From positions 2,356,001 through 2,420,000 of the forward strand of contig NZ_JACCCC010000001.1 of assembly GCF_013408795.1 (NCBI RefSeq): a stretch of 64,000 nucleotides of DNA, in the 5' to 3' direction. Shown here in pieces: positions 2,503 to 46,464 of this stretch. The notes beneath the pieces were generated by a model. The model worked only from the letters and a program-made list of their open reading frames with translations, was not told where the DNA came from and ran no database searches. The position numbers and the translations under genes are program-made. How positions within the stretch are numbered: the first letter of the stretch is position 1; each line of letters begins with the position of its first letter. Origin of the DNA: Spinactinospora alkalitolerans. Lineage in GTDB: Bacteria > Actinomycetota > Actinomycetes > Streptosporangiales > Streptosporangiaceae.

Positions 2503-2533
2503 CGCCCCCTTCCCGCCGACACTTCTTGACCTT

Positions 2534-2713
2534 GGGTTTCAACCTCGGCCCCGGGACGGAGCAGGCGCGCGGGTGGGTCCCTTCCACCTCGACCCCAGGG
2601 GGGCGTGAAGGCCCGCTCCAGGAGGGAGGGCGTGCGAGAGGATCGCCCAGTCACCGCGGGCTTGCGTCCTCGGGCTGAGGCTTCACAAGCCCCGGTGGCC
2701 GAGGTTGAGACTC
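2534..2713 (+). repeat. dispersed repeat, copy A, MITE-like
   Basis: About 180 bp beginning GGTTTCAACCTCGG and ending CCGAGGTTGAGACTC, which form inverted terminal repeats. A close relative lies inverted at 46309-46464, and a 24-bp identical core is present at 11986-12009. The nonanucleotide TTGACCTTG occurs directly on both sides (2526-2534 and 2717-2725), which looks like a 9-bp target duplication. There is no coding capacity, so if mobile it would need a transposase elsewhere. Confidence 0.65.
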
Positions 2714-2716
2714 ACG

Positions 2717-2768
2717 TTGACCTTGTGGGGCCTGAAAACGTCGCGATCACCCCGACGAGGTCAAGACC
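2717..2768. repeat. imperfect palindrome related to the one at 25571
   Basis: TTGACCTTGTGGGGC on the left is answered by CCCCGACGAGGTCAAGA on the right. The left arm is the same sequence as the arm of the perfect palindrome at 25571-25636. It adjoins copy A of the dispersed repeat, which may have inserted into it. Confidence 0.5.
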
Positions 2769-10314: not shown

Positions 10315-11964
10315 GTGGTAGCTGAGGGCACCCAGCCCGTGGAGGAGCGGTCCTCCGGGAGCGGGAGCGATGCCGGTACCGGAGGAGTCCCCGCGCGGCG
10401 CGGGCGCCTCGGCCTCCTCCTGCGGGCACTGGCCGCGCTCGCCTCCGGCCTGGCCCAGCTCGCCGCGCTGCCGCCCTACGGCCTGTGGGTCCTGGCCCCG
10501 CTGAGCGCGGCGCTGCTCCTGTGGGCCGTGCACGGGGTGCGGGCGCGCCGAGCCGCGTGGCTGGGCCTGCTCGCGGGCGCGGCCCTCATGGTGCCGCTGA
10601 TCAAGTGGCAGGAGGTCTTCGGCGCCGACGTCTGGCTCGTCATCGCGGCGGCCGAGACGGTCTACTTCGTCCCCATGGCCATGGGGATCGCCCTGGTGTC
10701 CCGGCTGCCCGGCTGGGTGGTGTGGACCAGCGCCCTGTGGGTCGCCCAGGAGTTCGTGCGCGCCCGCTTCCCGCTGGGCGGCTTCCCGTGGGGCAAGCTG
10801 GCCTTCAGCCAGCCCGACACCGTCTTCACCGGCTACGCCGCGCTGGGCTCCTCGGCACTGGTCACCTTCACCGTCGCGCTGACCGGAGCGCTGCTGGTCG
10901 CCGCGGTGCGGGCGGTCGCGCGCGCCCGCCGCGGCGGCGACCCGGCCGGCGGGGTCCGGTCGCTGGCCAATCACCTCGTCGTGATCCTGGCCGTCGCGGT
11001 CGCCGGGGCCTTCGCCCCGGCCATCGGCGCGCCGGAGCGCGACCACACCGCCACGGTCGCGCTCGTGCAGGGCAACGTGCCCGGCGTGGGGGAGATGAAC
11101 ATCCTCGGCGAGCGCATGCAGGTGCTGACCAACCACGTCGAGGGCGTGCACGAACTCGCCGAGCGGGTCCGCGCGGGCGAGGTGGACCAGCCTGATCTGG
11201 TGGTCCTGCCGGAGAACGCCAGCGACATCGACACCTACGCCGACCCCGCCGCCGCCGAACTCATCCAGCAAGCCGCCGAGGACGTCGGCGCGCCCCTGCT
11301 GTTCGGCATCACCAGATACAGCGAGGACGGCACTCAGCGCTGGATCCGCAGCGTCGTGTGGGACCCCGAGGACGGGCCCGGGGAGTACTACACCAAGCGC
11401 TACCTGGTGCCCTTCGGCGAGTATGTGCCGTTCCGGGACTTCTTCGCCTCGATCGTGTCCCGGCTGGAGCAGGTCGGCAGCGACGCCGTGCCCGGGACCG
11501 AACCGGGGGCGCTGCGCATGGGCGACACCACCGTCGCCACCGCCATCTGCTTCGACGTCGCCTTCGACCGGCCGGTGCGCGAGTCGGTGGCCGCGGGCGG
11601 ACAGATCATCGCGGTCCCCACCAACAACGCCAACTACAACTTCACCGGCCAGTCCGACCAGCAGTTGGCCATCACCCAACTGCGCGCCGTCGAGCACGGC
11701 CGGCCCGCGGTGGTCGCCTCCACCAGCGGCGTCAGCGCGGTCGTGGCCACCGACGGCACCGTGACCTACCGCTCCCCGGAGGCCGAGCCGGCCGTCCACG
11801 TCGCCCAGGTGCCGGCGATGGCGGGCCTGACCCCGGCCACCAGGCTGGGCGTGTTCCCCGAGGCGGTCCTGACGCTGCTCGGAGTCGGCGCCGTCGCCGC
11901 GGCGGTCGCGCTGGAGCGCCGCTCGCGCCGACCGGGGCCCCGCCTCTGGGCCAAGGGATCTTGA
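10315..11964 (+). CDS. lnt: apolipoprotein N-acyltransferase
   Basis: A membrane enzyme of about 549 residues that N-acylates the lipid-modified Cys of lipoproteins. The N-terminal half has several hydrophobic segments. The C-terminal half is a nitrilase-like domain with the catalytic triad Glu in VVLPENAS (about 300), Lys in YYTKRYLVPFGEYVPF (about 361) and Cys in TAICFDVAF (about 412). The sequence NANYNFTGQSDQQLAITQLRAVE is characteristic of Lnt. A last membrane helix and basic tail close the protein. I chose GTG 10315 because GGAGGG lies 10 nt upstream; GTG 10297 or 10339 are possible. The lipoprotein signal of the binding protein at 4272 is a likely substrate. Actinobacterial Lnt proteins are sometimes fused to a dolichol-phosphate mannose synthase; this one is not. 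Confidence 0.88.
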   Translation: MVAEGTQPVEERSSGSGSDAGTGGVPARRGRLGLLLRALAALASGLAQLAALPPYGLWVLAPLSAALLLWAVHGVRARRAAWLGLLAGAALMVPLIKWQEVFGADVWLVIAAAETVYFVPMAMGIALVSRLPGWVVWTSALWVAQEFVRARFPLGGFPWGKLAFSQPDTVFTGYAALGSSALVTFTVALTGALLVAAVRAVARARRGGDPAGGVRSLANHLVVILAVAVAGAFAPAIGAPERDHTATVALVQGNVPGVGEMNILGERMQVLTNHVEGVHELAERVRAGEVDQPDLVVLPENASDIDTYADPAAAELIQQAAEDVGAPLLFGITRYSEDGTQRWIRSVVWDPEDGPGEYYTKRYLVPFGEYVPFRDFFASIVSRLEQVGSDAVPGTEPGALRMGDTTVATAICFDVAFDRPVRESVAAGGQIIAVPTNNANYNFTGQSDQQLAITQLRAVEHGRPAVVASTSGVSAVVATDGTVTYRSPEAEPAVHVAQVPAMAGLTPATRLGVFPEAVLTLLGVGAVAAAVALERRSRRPGPRLWAKGS

Positions 11965-11985
11965 ACCCCGACCACAGGAGGGATT

Positions 11986-12193
11986 CGCGGTGACTGGGCG
12001 ATCCTCTCGTGTGGCCGCAAGGCCCATTGCAGGGATCGCCCCGGCGCCGCGTCGCCCACGCCGCCACCTTGAGTGCCAGACCGAAACCACGGTGTCGGTG
12101 TGCGCTCAAGGCATCGGGTCTGCTCCGCGTGCGGGTGGGCGGTTTCCGTCCACGGGCCTTCGTCCACGCGAGAGAACCGCCCACCCGCACGCG
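11986..12193. repeat. partial copy C of the dispersed repeat, with strong hairpin
   Basis: The first 24 bp (11986-12009) are identical to the reverse complement of 2635-2658 inside copy A. Further on, a perfect 19-bp inverted repeat (12126-12144 with 12175-12193, arm CGCGTGCGGGTGGGCGGTT) surrounds a 30-nt loop; its GTGCGGGTGGG core also occurs in copies A and B. The order of shared blocks differs from A and B, so this is a mosaic or degenerated copy between lnt and fxsA. Confidence 0.5.
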
Positions 12194-12255
12194 ACTTGGG
12201 GCGGGAACGAAATCGGGCGGTGGGTCGTTACCGGAAGGGACGTCGAGATTATTGG

Positions 12256-25570: not shown

Positions 25571-25636
25571 CCGCCGATCTTGACCTTGTGGGGCCCGAAT
25601 CCGCTGATTCGTGCCCCACAAGGTCAAGATCGGCGG
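25571..25636. terminator. 24-bp perfect palindrome between convergent genes
   Basis: Arms 25571-25594 and 25613-25636 are fully complementary; an inner CGAAT/ATTCG stem tightens the loop. A run of A follows on the right, so it can act as a terminator leftward, and T/C-rich sequence precedes it. The arm contains TTGACCTTGTGGGGC, also found at 2717 beside the dispersed repeat. Confidence 0.75.
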
Positions 25637-46189: not shown

Positions 46190-46308
46190 CTGTCCGCCTC
46201 CCTCGATGACGACGTTTGATCCGCAACGCTACTAAAGCGGGATCGCCGCGGCGATCGGGGGTGGTGGTGCGAGGTCGTCGATGGAATGTGAAGCTGAACC
46301 TTTAACGT

Positions 46309-46464
46309 GAGTTTCAACCTCGACCACCGGGGGTCGCGAACCTCAGCCGAAGGTGGGATCCGCGGTGGTTGGGCGATGGTGCCCTCCGTCCCCGGCCTCA
46401 GGGGGTCGAGGTGGAGGGGACCCACCCGCACGCCCACTCCATCCCGGGGCCGAGGTTAAACCTC
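46309..46464 (-). repeat. dispersed repeat, copy B
   Basis: About 156 bp, inverted relative to copy A at 2534. Ends are GAGTTTCAACCTCG (46309-46322) and CCGAGGTTAAACCTC (46450-46464). Long blocks are shared with A: AACCTCGGCCCCGGGA, GCGGGTGGGTCCC, TCCACCTCGACCCC, GGCTGAGG, CCCCGGTGG. No clear target duplication is visible here. Confidence 0.65.

Follow-up and report, generated by a model that had tools for sequence, protein, structure and literature searches.

Short nested palindromic repeats, probably spread as non-autonomous MITE-like DNA, in the genome of Spinactinospora alkalitolerans

A short intergenic repeat with inverted ends, lying between two copies of a 9-bp sequence, raises the question of whether a small mobile element without genes of its own has inserted at this place or whether the sequence was built and multiplied in some other way. 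The repeat lies in the window analyzed here, a stretch of 64,000 nucleotides that corresponds to positions 2,356,001–2,420,000 of the own genome (G000; 6,684,050 bases in one contig, C1). MITE-type small mobile sequences are well known in bacteria, among them Correia, RUP, ERIC/RU-1, RU-2 and RU-3 (reviewed in PMC2229807), and a preliminary description had proposed either a non-autonomous element of this kind or a REP-like family, with three copies, A, B and C. The reading that we favor, and consider probable, is that these are lineage-specific non-coding palindromes that spread as non-autonomous MITE-like DNA and nested in their own palindromes.

Copies A and B proved to be inverted homologues with inverted ends, as had been claimed (blastn E = 1.4e-26 over 196 columns, 72% identity), and both are members with internal deletions that retain different parts. 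The 9-bp sequence TTGACCTTG is present on both sides of copy A, at 2526–2534 and 2717–2725, and A proper is hence a 182-bp element on the plus strand (2535–2716) with ends GGTTTCAACCTCGG ... CCGAGGTTGAGACTCACG and an internally deleted core. Copy B (46306–46462, minus strand; 157 bp), whose internal deletion is unlike that of A, carries no 9-bp direct repeat, its flanks being inverted (TTGAACCT ... AGGTTCAG). Copy C (about 11951–12198, minus strand), in the lnt/fxsA interval, shares with A the reported 24-bp core as an exact match (E = 5e-7) but is not the mosaic it was taken for: a covariance model derived from other members matches C from one end to the other (11979–12198; 101.6 bits, E = 3.3e-18), and on this alignment C is a nearly complete standalone core of the subfamily that we call K2, on the minus strand.

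Searched against the whole genome, A and B are both highly multicopy: A gave at least 93 matches at E ≤ 10, with 40 of 243 candidates scored, in at least 40 places, and B gave 61 matches at E ≤ 1e-4. A census of positions 1–2,460,000 (2.46 Mb, window included) found 91 clusters, made up of 79 element loci and 12 solitary copies of a hairpin, H, which by extrapolation amounts to roughly 250 loci in the whole genome. Hairpin H is 62 bp long and consists of an arm GCCGATCTTGACCTTGTGGGG, some 20 loop bases and the mirror arm; an unoccupied example at 25573–25634 has 21-bp perfect arms (GCCGATCTTGACCTTGTGGGG) and a 20-base loop. Elements of the A/B type have end arms (GTTTCAACCTCG ... CGAGGTTGAAAC), then core arms, then a core that is often partly deleted, with GTTTCAACCTCG found at either end on opposite strands as terminal inverted repeats. 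The core, of about 220 bp, also occurs alone and falls into two subfamilies, K1 (mean column identity 86%) and K2. A further repeat of about 120 bp, module M (C1:807113–807227 and 18 further matches), adjoins many H and element loci, often just outside them, and is sometimes solitary. Judged from its sequence, the family is one of short non-coding palindromic elements nested in one another (H, A/B-type end arms, core), and the intergenic, non-coding position reported for the three copies extends to the wider family. At C1:2339408–2339720, an element begins directly after a TAG stop codon and contains a tandemly duplicated arm.

The 9-bp repeat around A requires a more cautious interpretation than that of a simple flanking duplication, for TTGACCTTG doubles as arm sequence of H, a separate palindromic repeat. 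Its left copy (2526–2534, plus strand) is the left arm of a hairpin H, of which the right copy with the remainder (loop and right arm) follows A at 2717–2771, on the same strand; copy B lies outside H. The same arrangement recurs: a junction CAAGGTCAA-CGTGA-GTTTCAACC, or a close variant, is found at 28 loci, with a recognizable H loop outside it in 21 of the 28, and the opposite end, where kept, reads TTGACCTTG-[GA]-GTTTCAACC or similar. At the 20 loci where both H-loop orientation and the adjacent element arm could be called, all four loop/arm combinations are present (9 F/R, 5 R/L, 4 F/L and 2 R/R); A-type elements divide 11:9 between the left and right arms of H and 14:6 between the two relative orientations. 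One fixed position in H is thus used, in either arm and in either orientation. Had one composite been copied whole, only one class would be expected; the presence of all four implies recurrent insertion or inversions, and inversions within the palindromes are another possible source of the mixed orientations. As for the 9-mers themselves, left and right differ within the same copy by 27 mismatches over 21 copies, against 30.6 expected by permutation (p = 0.11); the repeat exists as described, but its within-copy matching is weak and a true target duplication is unproven. In each of two copies, left and right 9-mer share a rare variant (TTGACGTTG/TTGGCGTTG and TTGGCCTTG/TCGGCCTTG), which is what a real duplication predicts, without being proof of one, and no obvious target duplication was seen in B or in the standalone cores.

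Under the favored reading of spread as non-autonomous DNA, an enzyme acting in trans would recognize the palindromic arms, a cut at TTGACCTTG with a 9-bp stagger would insert the element, and internal hairpins would later be lost by decay, as in A and B. A more specific version, which we regard as possible but put forward only tentatively, is that transposition is self-nesting: arms of sibling palindromes would serve as the specific insertion site, perhaps guided by DNA structure, and yield Russian-doll loci (M > H > end arms > core). One could instead imagine that the palindromes grew and were shuffled in place through slippage, template switching, hairpin deletion and occasional copying, with neither a transposase nor a true target duplication. 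Such a process would be in keeping with the p value of 0.11, with arms duplicated tandemly or inversely within copies (e.g., C1:2339408 and C1:988213) and with element ends that resemble the precise loss of an H hairpin; however, unlinked dispersed copies require some means of spread, and the elements occupy one position of H irrespective of arm and orientation; we find shuffling in place rather unlikely.

If the elements were moved in trans, a transposase with matching ends might still be encoded in the genome, and the preliminary description had suggested looking for one. None was found among the families searched, namely Y1, DDE_Tnp_1 and IS256. Of nine DDE_Tnp_1 matches, three belong to one near-identical insertion sequence and the other six were scanned for known element sequences only; IS256 is represented by fragments only. 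The multicopy insertion sequence (L234, C1 near 1395582–1396226), about 1.5 kb long with three copies more than 99.6% identical, was rejected as the parent, since its ends (CAATGCCGTTCAGTTA) are unrelated to those of the elements; a core element is situated some 50 bp from one of its copies. The trans-acting mobilizer may since have been lost.

The same search bears on the REP-like family that had been offered as the other identity. REP/BIME sequences spread by RAYT transposases are likewise high-copy intergenic palindromes in composite arrangements (PMC2817692), and the elements described here share with them a position near gene ends. They are nevertheless longer and nested, and Y1_Tnp, the RAYT-type domain, was not matched in the genome, whereas E. 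coli and four other controls were positive. A REP unit measures 20–40 bp and bears a GTAG or CGTC tag (PMC3733652); in the present family, H measures 62 bp and the other units exceed it. For want of a Y1 match, we disfavor a REP/BIME system and consider it very improbable. A parallel to the nesting is provided by insertion sequences that target REPs, in which a second element likewise inserts specifically into a dispersed palindrome (PMC1525189), but the inserted element of the present family is another short non-coding palindrome and has no transposase gene.

Proximity to genes also invites the interpretation that these sequences are a conserved family of regulatory or terminator RNAs at gene 3' ends. 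With genes delimited by a crude ORF caller, 30 of the 79 element loci lie between convergent genes, 47 between tandem genes and 2 between divergent genes, compared with 208, 712 and 242 background gaps; divergent regions are avoided (2 observed, about 16 expected). Strand, in contrast, is indifferent to that of the nearest gene end, the 31 core matches comprising 15 sense, 15 antisense and 1 without such a gene. The elements are thus found downstream of genes, without strand bias, and spare divergent promoter regions. Folding would appear to favor an RNA, with z = −3.5 for A and z = −3.8 for B relative to shuffles, but this strength is that expected of any long palindrome. The K1 cores have a consensus four-way junction, better on one of the strands, which has 127 GU versus 25 AC cells; the fold had been selected on that strand. 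Covariation in K1 is at the level of shuffled alignments (0.103 vs. 0.100), and in the H arms it is absent (372 Watson-Crick cells vs. 383 expected). Nor is the K1 fold retained in the sister subfamily: in an imperfect alignment with K2, 69% of cells are paired, 18 consensus pairs are broken and one is doubly compensated. Rfam gave nothing in the window and no match to these elements in seven loci, and the core model matches the own genome only among 151. With covariation equal to shuffles and the fold broken in K2, a structured K1 RNA was dropped, and the possibility raised earlier, that the shared blocks are a regulatory RNA, is unsupported on the same two counts and for lack of covariation in H, of a strand preference and of an Rfam match; we judge such an RNA family improbable.

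What remains is the distribution of the family, for which the comparison genomes are other genera of the family, so that lnt-fxsA sites are orthologous without being base-exact. Copy A gave nothing significant in 40 relatives except one 37-bp match, and outside the own genome the K1 consensus gave only short matches. The K1 covariance model, run on 151 family genomes from 68 genera with stricter filters under which weak matches can be lost, matched the own genome and none of the other 150. A pattern scan of GTDB genomes, which may omit the own genome, gave 10 scattered matches and indicated no second host; plasmids searched for A and C and phages searched for A gave none, and the literature searched does not describe the family. 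At the orthologous lnt-fxsA site, 286 bp separate the lnt stop from the first fxsA codon that aligns, most of this being core C, whereas the corresponding distances in three related genera (L262, L263 and L264) are 119, 127 and 221 bp and the core is not seen; orthologous sites lacking the element, which the preliminary description had proposed to compare, thus do exist. Dispersal and lineage-restricted presence together support past mobility as read from the sequences, and the elements appear as a non-autonomous mobile element would: multicopy, intergenic, absent from the other genera examined and recurrent at one site in H, although the MITE label itself is unproven. Like Correia, RUP and ERIC-type MITEs they are short, gene-less, dispersed and foldable, with inverted ends (PMC2229807); unlike them, they have no parent insertion sequence that we could find, are nested in a second palindrome family and have a core confined to one known genome. 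They would add to the small mobile-like palindromes of high-GC genomes a well-populated, lineage-specific family whose choice of nested target is unusually regular.

Two minor observations concern the arms. First, a 39-bp unit of the arms recurs (82–87%) in a repeat that lies between genes in another genus (G007; L196:1430–1790, contig C9), the cores being different; that repeat is abundant and was matched in 11 of the 60 genomes searched (one per genus). Compared with the cores, the arms may have a greater age and a wider distribution, a lead only, because the 39-bp unit is GC-rich and self-complementary. Second, the end of lnt, from its final codons through the stop (GGGCCAAGGGATCTTGA, 11948–11964), is similar in sequence to the outer arm of copy C, placing the stop codon within element-arm-like sequence; copy C may have supplied the lnt C-terminus, which would make this a case in which a repeat provided the end of a coding gene.
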